Positions 13,688-34,775 of a DNA stretch of 35,106 nucleotides are shown here, in pieces (position 1 is the first letter of the stretch; the number at the start of each line of letters is the position of its first letter). The DNA lies in contig JALEMY010000116.1 in NCBI GenBank assembly GCA_022767485.1, positions 1 through 35,106 on the forward strand, given 5' to 3'. The DNA comes from Erysipelotrichaceae bacterium. GTDB taxonomy: Bacteria > Bacillota_I > Bacilli_A > RFN20 > CAG-631. Under the pieces are notes generated by a model that saw nothing but the letters and a program-made list of their open reading frames with translations, was not told the DNA's origin and searched no databases. Position numbers and translations under genes: made by a program.

Positions 13688-14098
13688 TTAACGTTTTGAG
13701 AATTGAGGAGCTCTTCTTGCGCCTTTAAGACCATATTTTTTACGTTCTTTAGCACGAGCATCTCTTGTTAATAATCCAAGTGATTTTAATGTTGGACGAT
13801 AGTCAGCTGAAGCTTGTAATAAAGCTCTTGCAATTCCTAAGCGGATAGCACCAGTTTGACCATTGTAACCTCCACCTTGAACATTACAACTAATATCAAA
13901 ACGAGTTTCATTTGATGTTGCAACAAGTGGTTGTTTTAAATCCATAACAAATGTCGCAGTTGGAAGATAGTCTTCAACCTTAACGCCGTTTACAGTAATA
14001 TTTCCAGTTCCAGGAACTAATGTTACTCTAGCAACTGAAGATTTACGTCTACCAGTTCCTAAATAGCGAACTGCTTCAACTTTTTTCTTTGCTGGCAT
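13688..14098 (-). CDS. rpsI: Ribosomal protein S9
   Basis: A 136-residue uS9. It starts with a short lysine-rich extension and then has [14 protein letters not shown] (12-25), [21 protein letters not shown], and a basic tail that ends [11 protein letters not shown]. The tail reaches the 30S P site. Full length. It is translated from the rplM message 12 bases downstream of L13, with its own AGGAGG. Confidence 0.99.
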
Positions 14099-14666: not shown

Positions 14667-14975
14667 TTAGTTAGTAGTTTTAACAACATCATCAATCGGT
14701 AGTGAAAAAGCGATTCCTTGGGCCTTACTTTTATTTCCACAATTATCATATAAACCTTTAAGTATTTTATCTTTAATATTTTTATCAACTATGATCATAA
14801 CGATTTCTTTTTCAGGTTCAATGGTAATATTAAATATTTTCTCCGCTTCTTTTGATGTTGTCCCTCGAGCATGAATAATAGTTCCACCTGTAGCTCCTAA
14901 TTGCTTAGCCACGTCCATAACTTCATCTGAAAAGCCATTATTTACAATGCACATAATTAGTTCGTATTCATTCAT
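14667..14975 (-). CDS. P-II-like regulatory protein (second of a pair)
   Basis: A 102-residue ferredoxin-like protein from the ATG at 14975 (AAAGGAGAGA just upstream). A longer reading from 15035 would overlap the upstream gene and lacks a site. GATGGTIIHARGT resembles the P-II segment before the T-loop (GAt.idgRG.), followed by IEPEKEIVMIIV and the C-terminal AQGIAFSLPIDDV. The T-loop is short and the Tyr used for uridylylation is not evident, so it is not a classical GlnB. It shares the GIAF-[ST]-[IL]-P ending with the adjacent paralogue. It probably senses a nucleotide or metabolite and acts on the DUF1538 membrane protein encoded upstream; this is inferred from gene order. Confidence 0.75.
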   Translation of the reverse strand: MNEYELIMCIVNNGFSDEVMDVAKQLGATGGTIIHARGTTSKEAEKIFNITIEPEKEIVMIIVDKNIKDKILKGLYDNCGNKSKAQGIAFSLPIDDVVKTTN

Positions 14976-14991
14976 GATTATCTCTCCTTTT

Positions 14992-15363
14992 TCATCTAGT
15001 GATATTTCCAAGCAGCTGATATGAGAAAACACCAATAATACTTGAAAGTGGAATTGTAAAAGCTATTCCTTTTCCATTTTTCACCTTTTCAAATTTTTCT
15101 TGTAATGTTGTTAATACTTCTTTAACTTTTTCTTCTCTTACAAATGAAAATATAACTGCCTTATCGGTATTAGCAAGTCCTAAATACTGGAGCATTTCAT
15201 GGTTTGCTGTTCCTTTTCCATTAGCAACTAGTTGCACATTAATTTCAAATTGTTCTAGTAAATCAATATAAAACAAAGCCTTACTTTTATTAACAACACT
15301 TATTAGAAGTTTTATTTTTTTTATAGCTGGAGTTTTACTTTTTTCTTTTTTATATTTTGCCAT
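14992..15363 (-). CDS. P-II-like regulatory protein (first of a pair)
   Basis: A 123-residue protein. A basic N-terminal extension of about 18 residues precedes a ferredoxin-like domain: LLISVVNKSKALFYIDLLEQFEINVQ, then NGKGTANHEMLQYLGLANTDKAVIFSFV, then GKGIAFTIPLSSIIGV. The LGL.NTDKAV.FS stretch and terminal GKGIAFT-PL are typical of P-II-family proteins beside DUF1538 genes as I recall them. It diverges strongly from the downstream P-II-like protein, so they may form different homotrimers or a heteromer. It lies 9 bases after the DUF1538 gene and 16 bases before the second P-II gene. Confidence 0.7.
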   Translation of the reverse strand: MAKYKKEKSKTPAIKKIKLLISVVNKSKALFYIDLLEQFEINVQLVANGKGTANHEMLQYLGLANTDKAVIFSFVREEKVKEVLTTLQEKFEKVKNGKGIAFTIPLSSIIGVFSYQLLGNITR

Positions 15364-15372
15364 ATATACCTC

Positions 15373-16902
15373 CTACATAAATTTGATGATTTGATCATCA
15401 TCTTCATCAAGTATTTTCTTCATCGCAATTCTTTCACGCATTTTTTGCAACACAATTGCTTTAAAGCCAAGAAGTTGAATAGTGATTAAAGGAGTCATTG
15501 CAACAAGTGCTACTACACCAAAAGCATCAAACAATATTTTCTCTTTTCCTTGCAAGATAAAACATGCCCCAACAGCAAATGGTAAAATAAAACTAGATGT
15601 TAATGGCCCACTAGCCACACCACCTGAATCAAAGGCGATTGCAGTATATATTTTTGGAACAAAAAAAGACAAAGCAAGAGAAATAAAATATCCAGGAATT
15701 ATATAATACAAAATTGAAAAATCAAAAATGATTCGAATAATCGATAAAAACAAAGATAAACCCACACCGAAAGTTAATGCTAAAAGCATCGATGTTTTGC
15801 TAACTGTTCCTGAAGTAATCTCTTCAACTTGATTATTTAAAACATGAATTGCCGGTTCAGCTAAAACTACAACAAATCCTAATATAAAACTAAAAATTGA
15901 TAATACTATCGGATTATAAGTTGCAAGTTGTTGTCCTATCTTATAACCAATAGGCATAAAACCAACATTGACAGCAGTCAAGAAAACTACCAAACCAATA
16001 TAAGTATAAATAATACCAAAAAATATTTGAATTAACTTTGTTTTTGGAAGTTTTAAAAAGATAAATTGAATGATAAAAAAGAAGAAAACTACTAAACCTA
16101 AAGCTAAAGAAACATCTTTTACAACCCCACGTAGTGCAAGTGTAAAATATTTAAACAGATTACTTCCCATTAAATAACTTTCAGGTATTTCATAAGATAT
16201 ATCGCCACTTGCAAATATACCAAGAAAAGATACCATCAAAATAGGACCTATTGAACATAAAGCTATCAAACCAAAGCTATTTTCCTTAGAATGCTTTCCT
16301 CCAATAGTTGAGGCAATCCCTACTCCAAGAGCCATAATAAATGGTACTGTTATTGGGCCTGTTGTCACGCCTCCAGAATCGAAAGCTACTGCTAAAAAGC
16401 CATCATTTGATTGCAAAAACATTAAAGATACTATAGCGAATAATAGCATATAAAAAAGCATTAAAATTGTCGATAATGACTTATTAAAAACTATTTTTAA
16501 AATACCGATTAATAAAAATAATGCGACGCCTACACCAACTAAAATAATTAGTAGTGTTGAATTAATTGCCTCTTTAACTTGTGATGCTAAAACAGATAAA
16601 TCCGGCTCAGCAATAGTGATTAAAAAACCTAATATAAAGCTTATTATCAATAGCAATGATAAACTTTTTGATTTTGTAAGTCCTGTTCCGACTTGCTCTC
16701 CCATTGGAGTCATTGCTAAATCAGCACCAACATTAAATAAACTAATACCTACAATTAAAAAAATTGCAGAAACAACAAAAATTATCAATTCTGTCTTACT
16801 TATAGATACGAGAGGAGTGAAATTTAACAATAAAACAATAAATGTAATTGGCAAAATTGAAATTAATGCCTCTTTAAGTTTTGATAATAATTGTTGTATC
16901 AT
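15373..16902 (-). CDS. Tandem DUF1538 polytopic membrane protein
   Basis: A 509-residue integral membrane protein with about 12-14 hydrophobic segments and a clear internal duplication. In half one, FILGFLITIAEPDLSVLASQV lies near residue 100 and AFDSGGVTTGP near 173. In half two, FILGFVVVLAEPAIHVLNNQV lies near 345 and AFDSGGVASGP near 420. The repeated AEP and DSGG(V)xxGP motifs inside membrane segments look like substrate- or ion-binding loops, as in inverted-repeat transporters, though this is inference. DUF1538 proteins have no established substrate known to me. Two P-II-like genes follow, suggesting P-II-gated transport. Strong RBS (AAGGAGGGA). A palindrome covers the promoter. Confidence 0.85.
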   Translation of the reverse strand: MIQQLLSKLKEALISILPITFIVLLLNFTPLVSISKTELIIFVVSAIFLIVGISLFNVGADLAMTPMGEQVGTGLTKSKSLSLLLIISFILGFLITIAEPDLSVLASQVKEAINSTLLIILVGVGVALFLLIGILKIVFNKSLSTILMLFYMLLFAIVSLMFLQSNDGFLAVAFDSGGVTTGPITVPFIMALGVGIASTIGGKHSKENSFGLIALCSIGPILMVSFLGIFASGDISYEIPESYLMGSNLFKYFTLALRGVVKDVSLALGLVVFFFFIIQFIFLKLPKTKLIQIFFGIIYTYIGLVVFLTAVNVGFMPIGYKIGQQLATYNPIVLSIFSFILGFVVVLAEPAIHVLNNQVEEITSGTVSKTSMLLALTFGVGLSLFLSIIRIIFDFSILYYIIPGYFISLALSFFVPKIYTAIAFDSGGVASGPLTSSFILPFAVGACFILQGKEKILFDAFGVVALVAMTPLITIQLLGFKAIVLQKMRERIAMKKILDEDDDQIIKFM

Positions 16903-16929
16903 TGTTATTGTTCCCTCCTTTTATTATTT

Positions 16930-16958
16930 ATTATATATTTTATCATTTGATGATAAAA
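16930..16958 (-). promoter_or_regulatory. Promoter with operator-like palindrome, DUF1538 operon
   Basis: A TATAAT -10 (complement of 16930-16935) is followed upstream by a near-perfect inverted repeat, TTTTATCAT-TTG-ATGATAAAA (16938-16958). The repeat covers the whole spacer and the poor -35 (TTTTAT). A 9-bp arm with a 3-base centre at this place is a plausible repressor or activator site. Confidence 0.5.
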
Positions 16959-16978: not shown

Positions 16979-16997
16979 AAGTACAATAAATGTACTT
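16979..16997 (-). terminator. Terminator after prs
   Basis: AAGTACA (16979-16985) pairs with TGTACTT (16991-16997) around ATAAA, with seven T following on the minus strand. It overlaps the prs stop codon and ends the uppS-to-prs operon. Confidence 0.8.
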
Positions 16998-17961
16998 AAT
17001 TTGAGTAATGCTCATTAGCAAAAGCCTTATGAACCGAAGATAATGATTTCCCCTCTTCTAAAGCCACTATGATTCTAGAAAATAATTCAGCCATCGATAA
17101 AACTTCAATCTTGTCTGAATGTTTTTCTTTTGGCAAAGGAATTGTATCGGTAATAACAAGTTTTTCTAAAGATGAATTGTTTATTCTTTCAACCGCTGGA
17201 GTAGATAAAACCCCATGGGAGATTGCAGCATAAACATGTCTTGCTCCAAGTTGCTTTAATTTTTCTGCAGCTAAACATAATGTCCCTGCTGTATCAACAA
17301 TGTCATCAACAATGATACAATCTTTATCTTTAACATCGCCAACAATAGCAAAAATTTCCGCTTCATTTGGTCTTGGTCTTCTTTTATCAATAATAGCGAT
17401 TGGTGCATTTAATTTTTCTGCAAGCTTTGATGTTCTAACAACACCACCATGATCTGGAGAAACACATACTATATCTTTTAAATCTAAATCTTTGAAATAT
17501 CGATAAAAAATTGGTAAAGCCGAAACATCATCTACAGGAATGTTAAAAAAGCCTTGAATTTGCGATGCATGTAAATCTGTACACACAATTCTTTGACAAC
17601 CAGCAGTAGTTAATAAATCAGCCACTAATTTAGCAGAAATTGGCTGACGAGCCTTAGCTTTTCGATCTTGTCTTGCATAGCCAAAATATGGCATGATACA
17701 AGTAATTGTCCTAGCTGATGCTCTTTTTAGTGCATCACAACATATTAATACTTCCATTAATCTTTCTGTCACTGGTGCACATGTCGATTGAATGATGTAA
17801 ACATTATTACCTCTAAATGATTCTTTTCCTTCAAAAAGCACTTCTCCATCTGCAAAATGAGTAACTTTTGTCGGTGTAATATCAATGTTTAAAATTTCAG
17901 AAATCTTCTTTGTTAAGTCCTCATTCGCTGTAAGGCTAACTAATTTTAATCGATCTAACAT
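16996..17961 (-). CDS. prs: Ribose-phosphate pyrophosphokinase
   Basis: A 321-residue class I PRPP synthetase that transfers pyrophosphate from ATP to ribose 5-phosphate. Motifs are YFGYARQDRKAKARQPISAKLVADLL (about 95-120), DLHASQIQGFFNIPVD (130-145), the flexible-loop KRRPRPNEA, and the PRPP-binding DCIIVDDIVDTAGTL (about 214-228). Full length. It is the last gene of the operon, 17 bases after the degenerate glmU gene, which preserves the glmU-prs neighbourhood. RBS AAAGGGGAAAG. Confidence 0.98.
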   Translation of the reverse strand: MLDRLKLVSLTANEDLTKKISEILNIDITPTKVTHFADGEVLFEGKESFRGNNVYIIQSTCAPVTERLMEVLICCDALKRASARTITCIMPYFGYARQDRKAKARQPISAKLVADLLTTAGCQRIVCTDLHASQIQGFFNIPVDDVSALPIFYRYFKDLDLKDIVCVSPDHGGVVRTSKLAEKLNAPIAIIDKRRPRPNEAEIFAIVGDVKDKDCIIVDDIVDTAGTLCLAAEKLKQLGARHVYAAISHGVLSTPAVERINNSSLEKLVITDTIPLPKEKHSDKIEVLSMAELFSRIIVALEEGKSLSSVHKAFANEHYSN

Positions 17962-30616: not shown

Positions 30617-30699
30617 GAATTAGTTTTATTAAAATCATGTGCTGGTTTTGTGTTTATTTTAAAAAAAATAAACCAATAATATAGTTGAGGTGTATTCTT

Positions 30700-31218
30700 T
30701 TGAAAACAGGAATGGTTCGCAAAATTGATGAATTAGGTAGAATAGTAATCCCAAAAGAGATAAGAAGAAATCTAAAATTAAATATGGGTGATGTTGTTGA
30801 AATATATGTTGAAGATAATAAAATTATCTTTAAAAGATTTTCCACACTTCTTGGTTTAGAAGAAGATTTATTTAATATTGCTAAAGTTATTAATGAACAA
30901 AATGGGGCGACAATTCTTTTTGTCGATCAAGATAAAATCATTGTTGGCTATGGTAAATTATCAGAAAACTATTTAGATAAAGAAATATTAAGAGAAATAT
31001 ATGAAAAATCTCATGAAACATTTTTTAATAAATATAAAGACATATCTTTAGTCTCCGATTATATTGAAGATAGACAAATATATATAACATCACTTCATAA
31101 TAAAAAAATTATACATGGTTTATTTATTGCCATAGAAAACGAACACCACTTTGAACAAAAAGATTTAGATATTATGTTACAATTTAAAAAATTTATTTGT
31201 AAACAACTAGATAGTTAA
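30700..31218 (+). CDS. spoVT: Stage V sporulation protein T (AbrB/GAF)
   Basis: A 172-residue transcription factor from a TTG start at 30700, seven bases after GAGGTG; a TTG at 30685 has no site. The N-terminal AbrB swapped-hairpin DNA-binding domain is nearly identical in pattern to Bacillus SpoVT (KTGMVRKIDELGRIVIPKEIRRNL). The C-terminal GAF-like domain (about 55-172) is divergent. SpoVT tunes sigma-G-dependent genes in the forespore. It is transcribed away from rpsB. A weak sigma-G-like element (TGTTTA-18-AATAATA, 30651-30681) and an AT-only inverted repeat (30652-30673) lie upstream. Confidence 0.9.
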   Translation: MKTGMVRKIDELGRIVIPKEIRRNLKLNMGDVVEIYVEDNKIIFKRFSTLLGLEEDLFNIAKVINEQNGATILFVDQDKIIVGYGKLSENYLDKEILREIYEKSHETFFNKYKDISLVSDYIEDRQIYITSLHNKKIIHGLFIAIENEHHFEQKDLDIMLQFKKFICKQLDS

Positions 31219-31253
31219 TCATTATTTTTGTATAATTGTCTTGGGTGATTATT

Positions 31254-31526
31254 GTGCGTCTAGATAAATATTTAAAAGTATGTCGAATATTTAAAAGAAG
31301 AACAGTTAGTAAAGATATTATTTCCTTTGGGCAAGTTTCAATCAACAATAAAAAAACAAAACCTTCTAGTGAAGTTAAGATAGGTGATCATATTAAATTA
31401 AACCTTTCAAACAAGGAAATCACCATTGAAGTTTTATCAATAGATGATAAAATTAAAAAAAATGAAGTGACTAATCTTTATAAAATAATCGATGAAAAAG
31501 AAATAAAATCTCCTGAAGAATCATAA
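31254..31526 (+). CDS. rqcP: RqcP (YabO) ribosome quality-control S4-domain protein
   Basis: A 90-residue S4-domain RNA-binding protein from the GTG at 31254 (GGGTGA just upstream); an ATG at 31236 would add six residues without a site. It begins RLDKYLKVCRIFKRRTVSKD, aligning directly with Bacillus RqcP (RLDKFLKVSRL.KRRT..K), and continues with the S4 core SINNKKTKPSSEVKIGD. With RqcH it adds alanine tails to nascent chains on stalled 50S subunits. Gene order rqcP-yabP-yabQ is conserved. Confidence 0.93.
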   Translation: MRLDKYLKVCRIFKRRTVSKDIISFGQVSINNKKTKPSSEVKIGDHIKLNLSNKEITIEVLSIDDKIKKNEVTNLYKIIDEKEIKSPEES

Positions 31527-31548
31527 GATTATTTAGGAGGTTTTTTTT

Positions 31549-31824
31549 ATGACAATAATGGGACAAACATTAAAATTAAGTGATAGGAACAATCTTGAGA
31601 TGAACAATGCTAAAAAGGTCATTAGTTTCAATACTAACGAATTTTTAGTTGATACACCTTATGGAGTATTAAAAATACTAGGAAAAGATTTATCTATTGG
31701 AAAAATGGATACTGAAAAGCAAGAATTAGTAATTAAAGGAAATATTGATTCTATCTCATATGTAAACACCAAAAATGAGTTAAACAAGCAAAAAGAAAGC
31801 ATTTTTAAAAAAATCTTTAAATAA
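31549..31824 (+). CDS. yabP: Sporulation protein YabP
   Basis: A 91-residue YabP. The match to the Bacillus protein is visible along its length: LSDRNNLEMNNAKKVISFNTNEFLVDTPYGVLKILGKDL, then the GNIDSISY segment and the C-terminal IFKKIFK. Members are needed for cortex formation in some sporulators and are related to YqfC, a SpoIVA partner. Strong AGGAGG before the ATG, 22 bases after rqcP. It overlaps yabQ by one base. Confidence 0.92.
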   Translation: MTIMGQTLKLSDRNNLEMNNAKKVISFNTNEFLVDTPYGVLKILGKDLSIGKMDTEKQELVIKGNIDSISYVNTKNELNKQKESIFKKIFK

Positions 31825-32255
31825 TGAATCTAAATGTACAATTTGAAGTCGTATTAGCATCGCTTTCTTTTGGCGTTTTATTCATGATTTTATATGATTT
31901 ATTCAATTTGCTTTTATATAGGAAAAAAGGCAAGTTTTCTCGATTGATATTAGAAATTATTTTCATGGGAACTATGACTCTTTTTTTCTTTTATATAATG
32001 TTAAAAATTGCAAACGCTAATTTAAATATCTTTATTCCTTTATTTATTTTTTTAGGAATTGCTATCTATTTTTTCTTTCTAAGAAATTCATTTTTATCAT
32101 ACTATCAATATTTATATAGCAAAATTAATCTTTATATTAAAAGAAAAAAACTATCAATAAGAGCAAAATTTGATATAATAAAGATGAAAAAAAGAAAGGC
32201 AAGAATCAAAAAGCATGAAAAGAATCTTAAATCAAAAGAAAGTAAAGTGTCATAA
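31824..32255 (+). CDS. yabQ: Spore cortex protein YabQ
   Basis: A 143-residue membrane protein with about four hydrophobic segments in the first 95 residues (QFEVVLASLSFGVLFMILYDLFNLLLY is the typical start with the conserved YD.). A strongly basic cytoplasmic tail of about 45 residues (RKKLSIRAKFDIIKMKKRKARIKKHEK) follows. YabQ localises to the mother-cell membrane around the forespore and is required for cortex synthesis. Start and yabP stop overlap (TAATG). The end of the gene overlaps a short downstream reading frame. Confidence 0.9.
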   Translation: MNLNVQFEVVLASLSFGVLFMILYDLFNLLLYRKKGKFSRLILEIIFMGTMTLFFFYIMLKIANANLNIFIPLFIFLGIAIYFFFLRNSFLSYYQYLYSKINLYIKRKKLSIRAKFDIIKMKKRKARIKKHEKNLKSKESKVS

Positions 32256-32349
32256 AAGTAAGTGGAACATCATTTTTGTGCTTATTACACTTATTTGTCT
32301 TGCAGGTATTTTTTATTTATTTTATTTATTATTCCAAATAGTGTTCTAA
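32215..32349 (+). CDS. 44-residue DivIC-position membrane protein
   Basis: A short frame starting inside the end of yabQ (41-base overlap), ATG at 32215, stop TAA at 32347. The product has a basic cytoplasmic N-terminus (residues 1-17) and one hydrophobic helix (about 18-44, NIIFVLITLICLAGIFYLFYLLF), and ends there. It occupies the place of divIC in Bacillus (between yabQ and spoIIE) and has DivIC topology, but the extracellular coiled coil is missing. SD is weak (AAAGG about 15 bases upstream), so it may be translated by coupling. It could be a remnant of divIC or a chance frame. Confidence 0.5.
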   Translation: MKRILNQKKVKCHKSKWNIIFVLITLICLAGIFYLFYLLFQIVF

Positions 32350-32373
32350 ATTCGACCAAATTATACAAAATAT

Positions 32374-32396
32374 GCATCGATAAGATGCTATTTTTT
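32374..32396 (+). terminator. Weak terminator after the yab genes
   Basis: A short GCATC/GATGC stem (32374-32378 with 32384-32388) followed by TA and eight T. The spoIIE ribosome-binding site begins a few bases later, so it may act as an attenuator allowing some read-through. Confidence 0.55.
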
Positions 32397-32416
32397 TTAT
32401 GAGGTGATTTATATTC

Positions 32417-34633
32417 ATGAAAAAAATCATTAAGTATTTTTTAGTATTTTTCCTTTCCTTTTTAGCAATTTTTTATAGGCAAGATCAAATTAATATTGTT
32501 TTAACTATCCCTCTTTTAGCTTTTTTTATGTTTAATGGTATACAATCTTTTATCGTTTCGCTTATCGGATTATTAATTGGCTCTATTTATTCGTTTTATA
32601 TATATCAAAGTTACTTATCTATCGTTTATTTGCTCATAGGATTATGCGCTTATTTTCTCTTGTATCACTTATTACTTTTATTCAACAAAAAACTAATAAT
32701 CAATTATATTGTTTCAGCAATTATAGCGATAGTTATTTCATATATTATTTACGCTATTAGCAATGATGACTTTCATTTAATCAAAGCGACAATTGTCCTT
32801 TTAAAATCATGTATTATTTGTCTTTTATTTGCTTTTTTATTAAAAAACTATTCATTTTATTTACATGTCTATAATGATGAATATAGTCCTATTATTATCG
32901 TTTCGTTAATTTTGGTTTATCTTTCACAGTTTTATGTGATTTTACCAACTATTATAGGCAAATACATCACTTTATTCTTACTTCTTTTAACTTCTCTTAT
33001 CTTTACATTAAAAAACAAGACGACTTTTGTTTTGTGCTTCAATAGCGCTATTTTACTTTTAGGTTATATCTTTTCAATAGAGTTTTTGTATAAGTATGTA
33101 TATATAATTTTGCCAACGACTGTTTGCTTATCTATCAATAAATCAAATAAAAACATCTTTAATTCCTTGTTATCTTTATCATGCTTTATCGTTTTATATT
33201 TTATTTTTAAAGACGATAATCTCGTATATTATTGTATTATGTCTTTTTCTATTTGCTTCATATTATTGTTTATTAAGAAAAAAACATTTGTTTTAAAAAC
33301 CAACGAATATTATAACCAATATATAAAAAATAGAGAAGAAATGCTATATCAACTTAAAAACTTTCAGTCTTTGTTTACTTACATGAGCAATAGTTTTAAA
33401 AATGCTAGACAAAATAGAATATTAACTAAAGCAAAAGAGGAAGTTTTTGATAAGCTATGTTTTAATTGTAGCAAAGCAGATATTTGTCATAAAAAAGGTA
33501 AGCATCTACTTTTAAATTACATAAAGGATTATATTAATGATGAATTAGATGAGGATTCCATTAGATATATCAAACATAATTGTTTAAAACAAGAAGCTTA
33601 TTTTACTCTTTTAGACAAGTTTACTAAGCATTATTTACTTAATAATTATAAAAAAGAAGAAGAATCTAAAATGAAAGAAATAATTGCCGCAGATTTTTAT
33701 AGCTTTTCTATGGTAATGGAACAATGCTGCATAAGTTTTAATAATGATAAACTTCTTTTAGCTAATCATTTTTATAAAAAACTTGATAGTATATTGAAAG
33801 ACTATCACTTTGATATCTTATTTGTAAACAATCATTCTTGCGATGATTATTACCAGTTTGATGTTGCAATTAAAAACATAAAAGTTAAAGAAATTAACGA
33901 ATTGTTACTTCCTTTAATCGATGAAGCATTACAAACAAATATGGAAATAATACAAGTTCATAACGCTACACTTTCCTCATCTTATTATATTTTGACCATA
34001 AAAGAAAAGGAAAATTTATCTATCGACTTTGCTATTAAACAGTCAAATGAAGACATAAAAGCTAATGGTGATTCATATTCAAGTCTTTATACATCTAAGC
34101 TATTCTTTTTTGCCATTGCTGATGGAATGGGAAATGGAATGGATGCAAATGAGGAAAGTAAATTTGCACTAGATTCATTATTTTCCTTACTAAAAACAAA
34201 TATGGATATCAAATCGAGTCTTCATATAACTAACGATATTATTCAATTAAAAAATGATTTTGAAAGTTATACAACGATAGATTTATTAGCGATTGATAGG
34301 AAAAAGAAAATTGCCTCATTTTATAAACTTGGAGCCTTCAATGCATATATTATTCGCGATCATCAAGTAACAGAAATTAATAATTTTTCTTTACCAATCG
34401 GCATTTTAGATAGTATAAACCCTACTGCATCGTCCTTTAAAATAGAAAAAAACGATGTTATTATCATGTGTAGTGATGGAATGATTGATGACACAAATTC
34501 TAAAATCAATTCCATATTAGAAGATATCACATATGATAATGCTAGTATTATTGTTAACTCCTTATTTTCTCACCTTATAGAAATTAGAAAAAACGATGAT
34601 GATGCTACATTAGCTGTTATAACAATACATTAA
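32417..34633 (+). CDS. spoIIE: Stage II sporulation protein E (SpoIIE) phosphatase
   Basis: A 738-residue membrane PP2C phosphatase. It has about ten transmembrane helices (1-290), a central regulatory region (about 300-540) with a Cys cluster C348-x2-C351-x5-C357, and a C-terminal PPM domain. Metal-binding Asp residues are visible at D569 (IADGMGNGMD), D687 (CSDGMIDD) and D727-D729 (DDDATLAV). SpoIIE dephosphorylates SpoIIAA to release sigma-F in the forespore, which fits the sigma-F-type promoter before spoIIQ. It is shorter than Bacillus SpoIIE (827 residues), mainly in the central region. RBS GAGGTGAT. Confidence 0.97.
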   Translation: MKKIIKYFLVFFLSFLAIFYRQDQINIVLTIPLLAFFMFNGIQSFIVSLIGLLIGSIYSFYIYQSYLSIVYLLIGLCAYFLLYHLLLLFNKKLIINYIVSAIIAIVISYIIYAISNDDFHLIKATIVLLKSCIICLLFAFLLKNYSFYLHVYNDEYSPIIIVSLILVYLSQFYVILPTIIGKYITLFLLLLTSLIFTLKNKTTFVLCFNSAILLLGYIFSIEFLYKYVYIILPTTVCLSINKSNKNIFNSLLSLSCFIVLYFIFKDDNLVYYCIMSFSICFILLFIKKKTFVLKTNEYYNQYIKNREEMLYQLKNFQSLFTYMSNSFKNARQNRILTKAKEEVFDKLCFNCSKADICHKKGKHLLLNYIKDYINDELDEDSIRYIKHNCLKQEAYFTLLDKFTKHYLLNNYKKEEESKMKEIIAADFYSFSMVMEQCCISFNNDKLLLANHFYKKLDSILKDYHFDILFVNNHSCDDYYQFDVAIKNIKVKEINELLLPLIDEALQTNMEIIQVHNATLSSSYYILTIKEKENLSIDFAIKQSNEDIKANGDSYSSLYTSKLFFFAIADGMGNGMDANEESKFALDSLFSLLKTNMDIKSSLHITNDIIQLKNDFESYTTIDLLAIDRKKKIASFYKLGAFNAYIIRDHQVTEINNFSLPIGILDSINPTASSFKIEKNDVIIMCSDGMIDDTNSKINSILEDITYDNASIIVNSLFSHLIEIRKNDDDATLAVITIH

Positions 34634-34698: not shown

Positions 34699-34775
34699 GT
34701 CCCAGTACCTCAGCTGGATAGAGGATCCGCCTCCTAAGCGGGCTGCCGCAGGTTCAAATCCTGTCTGGGACGCCA
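34699..34775 (+). tRNA. tRNA-Arg (anticodon CCT)
   Basis: A 77-base cloverleaf including encoded CCA. The acceptor stem is GTCCCAG with CTGGGAC, the D-stem CCTC/GAGG, and the anticodon loop CTCCTAA giving anticodon CCT (reads AGG). The T-arm is GCAGG-TTCAAAT-CCTGT, the discriminator is G, and CCA is at 34773-34775. All stems pair, with G-T wobble in the anticodon and T stems only. Confidence 0.95.

Follow-up and report, generated by a model that had tools for sequence, protein, structure and literature searches.

What is the role of two dissimilar P-II-like genes lying directly behind the gene for a membrane protein of the DUF1538 family in an Erysipelotrichaceae bacterium, and what does this membrane protein carry? 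P-II proteins are known above all as controllers of ammonium and bicarbonate transport, in which GlnK plugs the AmtB ammonium channel and SbtB acts on the bicarbonate transporter SbtA. The window analysed here is the whole stretch of 35,106 nucleotides of contig JALEMY010000116.1. Based on the data below, we consider it likely that the locus encodes, in one operon, a monovalent-cation/proton antiporter of the DUF1538 (UmpAB) kind together with its own pair of P-II regulators.

Organization of the locus

Three adjacent open reading frames on the minus strand, covering 14667-16902, code for the DUF1538 membrane protein, P-II-1 and P-II-2 (Table 1). The gaps are 9 nt (transporter/P-II-1) and 16 nt (P-II-1/P-II-2), in agreement with the tightly packed three-gene unit described in the initial annotation. 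Each frame is preceded by a good ribosome-binding site, AAAGGAGGG for the transporter, AGGAGG for P-II-1 and AAAGGAGA for P-II-2. The P-II-2 frame had been listed as 14667-15035 from a TTG start at 15035; this start overlaps the neighbouring gene, is unsupported by homologues and was rejected. The conservation of homologues and the AAAGGAGA site place the real start at the ATG at 14975, giving a protein of 102 aa.

The unit is flanked by prs on one side and, on the other, by two ribosomal-protein-like genes, which we take by eye to be those of L13 and S9. No terminator-like site was found at the three-gene unit, and the promoter-like sites (24, against 16.5 in shuffled sequences) were in modest excess in an AT-rich region; the operon boundaries are therefore drawn from spacing only. 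The three genes most likely form one operon. Elsewhere in the window, a sporulation-type gene run was observed, in a genome of 1.7 Mb, and a tRNA gene is the sole Rfam match of the window.

Table 1. Features of the window, with positions counted from its first letter
Feature	Position	Strand	Remarks
umpAB-like gene, 509 aa	15373-16902	-	fused UmpA-like (N half) and UmpB-like (C half); PF07556 twice
DUF1538 repeat 1 (UmpA-like)	16213-16848	-	AEP at residues 98-100, DSGGVTTGP from residue 175
DUF1538 repeat 2 (UmpB-like)	15463-16092	-	AEP at residues 348-350, DSGGVASGP from residue 425
Acidic C-terminal tail of the transporter, LDEDDDQIIKFM	15376-15411	-	candidate docking peptide
P-II-1, 123 aa	14992-15363	-	divergent; basic N-terminal extension MAKYKKEKSKTPAIKK; extra C-terminal helix
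P-II-2, 102 aa	14667-14975	-	conserved ARGT, PEKEI and GQGIAF-type motifs
prs	16996-17961		flank of the three-gene unit
Ribosomal-protein-like gene, presumably L13	14111-14545		flank of the three-gene unit
Ribosomal-protein-like gene, presumably S9	13688-14098		flank of the three-gene unit
Sporulation-type gene run	30685-34633		MazE/SpoVT-like, S4-domain protein, YabQ, SpoIIE-domain protein
tRNA gene	34699-34772		Rfam match

The membrane protein and its relation to UmpAB

The 509-aa protein matched PF07556 twice, with 425.7 bits against the Pfam gathering cut-off of 22.6, indicating its membership in DUF1538. Its two halves share 31% identity over 232 aa (E ~3e-33), and the AEP and DSGGV-x2-GP motifs recur exactly in both repeats, so that the internal duplication and the repeated motifs noticed in the initial annotation both hold. 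Four acidic residues, E99, D175, E349 and D425, were invariant in an alignment of 19 homologues, and are the likely ion and proton sites of two pseudo-symmetric halves. When the halves were compared with split umpA-umpB homologues from Methylocystis and a related genome, the N half was closer to the first (A) gene and the C half to the second (B) gene, indicating that the duplication is older than the fusion. Searches of PDB sequences with protein and profile queries detected no relevant solved relative of the DUF1538 protein.

According to the initial annotation no substrate had been assigned to such proteins, a view that has to be revised. DUF1538 is the family of UmpAB from Halomonas zhaodongensis, whose two DUF1538 subunits form a heterodimer with pH-dependent Na+(Li+,K+)/H+ antiport activity (PMC5484666). 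It is the only DUF1538 pair assayed so far, in a heterologous host (PMC5484666). Since its antiport in E. coli was obtained from a plasmid with only umpA and umpB (PMC5484666), the P-II proteins would be regulators and not subunits that transport requires. UmpAB and the protein described here share two homologous DUF1538 units in A-B order. They differ in that the latter is a single fused protein, scores far below the equivalog cut-offs, and is followed by two P-II genes; no mention of P-II was found in the UmpAB paper (PMC5484666).

Against the UmpA and UmpB equivalog models (NF041627/NF041628), the whole protein scored 175.5/141.4 bits, compared with NCBIfam cut-offs of 490/500, the N half 102.6/88.7 bits and the C half 86.4/67.3 bits, and both halves aligned with both models over most of their length. 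With scores below these cut-offs we infer the ion of the fused protein from its relative. It is probably a DUF1538 member that works like UmpAB, rather than a certified UmpAB, and its ion specificity may differ from that of the tested pair, from which it is far removed. DUF1538 is listed among the families informative for growth pH in a machine-learning paper (PMC13255231), as would fit proteins involved in balancing cations and pH. The same genome carries a separate gene of the Na+/H+ exchanger family (PF00999; G000:C35:14597-15754), so that the DUF1538 protein is not its sole candidate Na+/H+ antiporter.

That second exchanger, the low equivalog scores and the single assayed pair in a heterologous host (PMC5484666) would all fit a different cargo. 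In that case the fused DUF1538 proteins of Bacillota would carry another ion or solute, for which Halomonas UmpAB is not representative, while still being regulated by the P-II proteins. We regard this as unlikely, though it is the alternative that survives best; against it stand the invariance of the four acidic residues across the aligned fused proteins and the alignment of the halves with the UmpA and UmpB models over most of their length.

Two dissimilar P-II-like proteins

P-II-2 matched the Pfam P-II family (PF00543) with 33.7 bits, above the gathering cut-off of 25, whereas P-II-1 reached 20.8 bits and stayed below it. Despite this low score, the homology of P-II-1 to P-II is clear from the match between the profiles of the two families (98.9% in hhalign) and from the predicted fold. 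The AlphaFold (AF2) monomer models of both proteins are ferredoxin-like, with pLDDT of 89.7 for P-II-2 and 82.5 for P-II-1. In Foldseek searches, the P-II-1 model matched P-II, PstA and CPII at a probability of 1.00 (TM-score by query length, about 0.5), and the P-II-2 model matched GlnK, SbtB and other P-II proteins at the same probability (TM-score by query length, 0.6-0.7), including the SbtA-SbtB complex 7egk. Both models thus match solved P-II proteins, as had been supposed when the two were first described as small ferredoxin-like proteins with a shared GIAF..P ending; this ending corresponds to GKGIAFTIP in P-II-1 and AQGIAFSLP in P-II-2, near the C-terminus of each.

When aligned with canonical P-II sequences from the same phylum, the two paralogues carry GQGIAF or GKGIAF in place of the B-loop GDGKIF; they have no C-loop RxRT, and their T-loop segments lack the tyrosine. 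Judged from the predicted models and this alignment, the P-II fold is kept in both paralogues and the known ATP-contact and uridylylation residues are lost. Since the residues for the canonical set of ATP and 2-oxoglutarate are missing, the ligand is probably a different one. The best solved relative of both families at the sequence level is 9p1x_H, annotated as 'P-II family nitrogen regulatory protein' (at no better than E=0.08 for P-II-1); no mention of 9P1X was found in the open-access literature. No other P-II was matched in the source genome, which is 81% complete.

Linkage of DUF1538 and P-II genes

For a systematic comparison, DUF1538 loci were gathered whether or not a P-II gene was nearby, drawing on relatives, on the phylum and a second Bacillota group, on a contig scan and on plasmids, and duplicates were removed; a few contigs entered the set through a P-II search of genomes of the same phylum, and the other sets alone agree. 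A P-II gene was located directly 3' of the last DUF1538 gene in 182 of the 183 distinct loci, with a median gap of 3 nt. The sole exception (L179) carries a 105-aa DUF1538 remnant, and its P-II genes are gone too. The neighbour of this N-terminal remnant (L179:4857-5174, plus strand) is a gene that, in a congeneric relative, comes after the cassette; both P-II genes have been deleted.

The architectures include a fused transporter with two P-II genes (131 loci) or with one two-domain P-II gene (24 loci), and split umpA-umpB with two P-II genes (6 loci), with a two-domain P-II gene (10 loci) or with one P-II (3 loci, including two alphaproteobacterial plasmids); the few remaining loci are other architectures or cases at contig edges. 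Bacillota mostly carry two P-IIs, either as two genes or as one fused gene. Three consecutive P-II genes follow one fused DUF1538 protein in one locus (L138:2200-3171, plus strand), and two tandem umpA-umpB-P-II cassettes, with a single P-II each, were detected in one genome (L206). Some contigs bear MAG labels such as Bacteroidales or Fibrobacter, and nothing rests on these labels.

DUF1538 was carried by 58 of 295 genomes in one sample of Bacillota and by 84 of 250 in another. Of the 295 genomes from the phylum, 57 have both DUF1538 and the P-II-1 family, 1 has DUF1538 alone, 4 have the P-II pair alone and 233 have neither (Fisher p=6.6e-55, a value that ignores relatedness and on which the conclusion does not depend). 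The proposal of the initial annotation, drawn from gene order, that the P-II pair belongs with the DUF1538 protein is strongly supported by this survey of neighbourhoods and by the co-conservation of the genes across genomes.

P-II pairs with and without a transporter

In a tree of 134 P-II domains, resolved from few columns and with many open forks, the members at the first and second positions separate, with 3 and 7 label changes compared with means of about 45 in shuffles. The split by position holds for fused and separate P-IIs alike, P-II-1 being the more divergent paralogue, and the single P-IIs of alphaproteobacteria group with the second-position members. The simplest reading of this tree would be one old duplication with gene order conserved thereafter.

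Complete P-II-1/P-II-2 pairs without any DUF1538 gene were detected in four loci, L175, L176, L177 and L178 (genomes G007, G041, G054 and G233). Three of these genomes belong to one genus, in which the pair adjoins a gene that we named by eye as rluA-like; in other relatives, the rluA-like gene is located upstream of DUF1538. The dN/dS of the orphan P-II genes was 0.01-0.04 between G054 and G233, the least saturated comparison (dS 0.6-0.75), and 0.05-0.14 in comparisons over greater distances, which were partly saturated; that of the neighbouring rluA-like gene was 0.03. In this genus, which lacks DUF1538, purifying selection thus acts on the orphan pair, and with such low dN/dS the pair seemingly has a function that does not need the antiporter, suggesting that the P-II pair can have another target.

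Such orphan pairs in four genomes, and their dN/dS as low as that of the rluA-like neighbour in the genus with three of them, would be expected if the P-II pair were a general signalling module that happens to stand beside DUF1538 and has its main target elsewhere. We judge this improbable, given that the pair occurs without DUF1538 in only 4 of the 61 genomes that carry it, that 57 of 58 genomes with DUF1538 have the pair, and that one genome (G039) has lost transporter and pair together. Mere coincidence of the operon, with P-II genes adjacent and co-transcribed for reasons of expression only, is hardly credible in view of the linkage in 182 of 183 loci, whose neighbourhoods vary and whose transporter and P-II parts may each be split or fused, and of the co-occurrence at p=6.6e-55, both of which strongly disfavour it.

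A candidate contact between transporter and P-II-1

The acidic tail of the transporter, LDEDDDQIIKFM, contains the motif DDxQIIxF and comes after a K/R-rich stretch, QKMRERIAMKK, by which it is probably placed on the cytoplasmic side. The motif was detected in 85% of the fused transporters, compared with 10% of shuffled tails. Among distinct fused-transporter loci, it is present in 121 of 125 in which the P-II genes are separate and the first P-II is of the A3 type, and in 1 of 21 with a fused P-II of the other, less divergent type. Separate as opposed to fused P-II genes were considered as the cause of the tail and rejected, as loci with an A3-type fused P-II retain it; the tail tracks the clade, not the fusion.

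In loci with the motif, the N-terminal extension of P-II-1 has a median of 26 residues and a charge of +4, compared with 9 residues and a charge of 0, lengths that vary with the start codons, which were assigned mechanically. By numbers of loci the association is strong, but over the tree the tail switches state just 3 times, corresponding to few independent events. With these two limits in mind, the acidic tail and the basic N-terminus of P-II-1 are put forward as a docking pair by way of hypothesis, and not as demonstrated coevolution.

Proposed mode of regulation

Resting on the family membership, fold, gene order, co-occurrence and paralogy established above, our preferred reading is that the two P-II-like proteins very probably control the antiporter; physical binding, the sign of the control and the ligand are inferred, and the linkage could reflect a shared pathway instead of binding. 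P-II-1 and P-II-2, as old paralogues, would most likely assemble into P-II-type oligomers that attach to the antiporter from its cytoplasmic side, with the DDxQIIxF tail and the basic P-II-1 N-terminus as a possible point of contact, and tune its activity to the small molecule they have bound, much as in the established pairs GlnK-AmtB and SbtB-SbtA. By analogy alone, inhibition would be the more likely sign of this control. A fuller version, to which we give somewhat less than even weight, is a widespread system in which a P-II sensor of two paralogues with non-canonical ligand sites docks on the acidic tail of the DUF1538 antiporter and couples the cytoplasmic balance of Na+, K+ and pH to a nucleotide or metabolite signal; in certain lineages the antiporter would have been lost while the sensor pair persists, working on a second target.

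Comparison with known P-II systems

As in the GlnK-AmtB system, a gene for a P-II fold lies beside a transporter gene, and GlnK structures are among the Foldseek matches; the locus described here differs in its transporter family, in its two dissimilar P-IIs and in the lack of the GDGKIF B-loop, the RxR C-loop and the T-loop tyrosine. With SbtB-SbtA it shares the pairing of a non-canonical P-II-like protein with a transporter, and 7egk is a structural match, whereas the transporter family is again another one and a second, divergent P-II paralogue is present. NifI1 and NifI2 are a dissimilar pair of P-II paralogues acting together on nitrogenase. They resemble the present pair as two adjacent dissimilar P-II paralogues, but their target is an enzyme and not a transporter. 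PII-NG with CzcABC, discussed for Geobacter GSU2134, is a case of a P-II domain gene beside a cation/proton antiporter operon; it differs in that CzcABC is a metal efflux pump and only one P-II is involved (PMC7726332). In the open-access literature, to which the search was confined with subscription journals outside its scope, no paper describing a link between DUF1538 and P-II was found, and for a cation-linked P-II group only the discussion of the CzcABC-linked PII-NG was found (PMC7726332).

The proposed control is open to direct tests, since an E. coli KNabc complementation assay is established for the antiporter and the P-II proteins are small and soluble. If it is true, P-II signalling would reach into the homeostasis of monovalent cations and of pH across much of Bacillota and in some Pseudomonadota.
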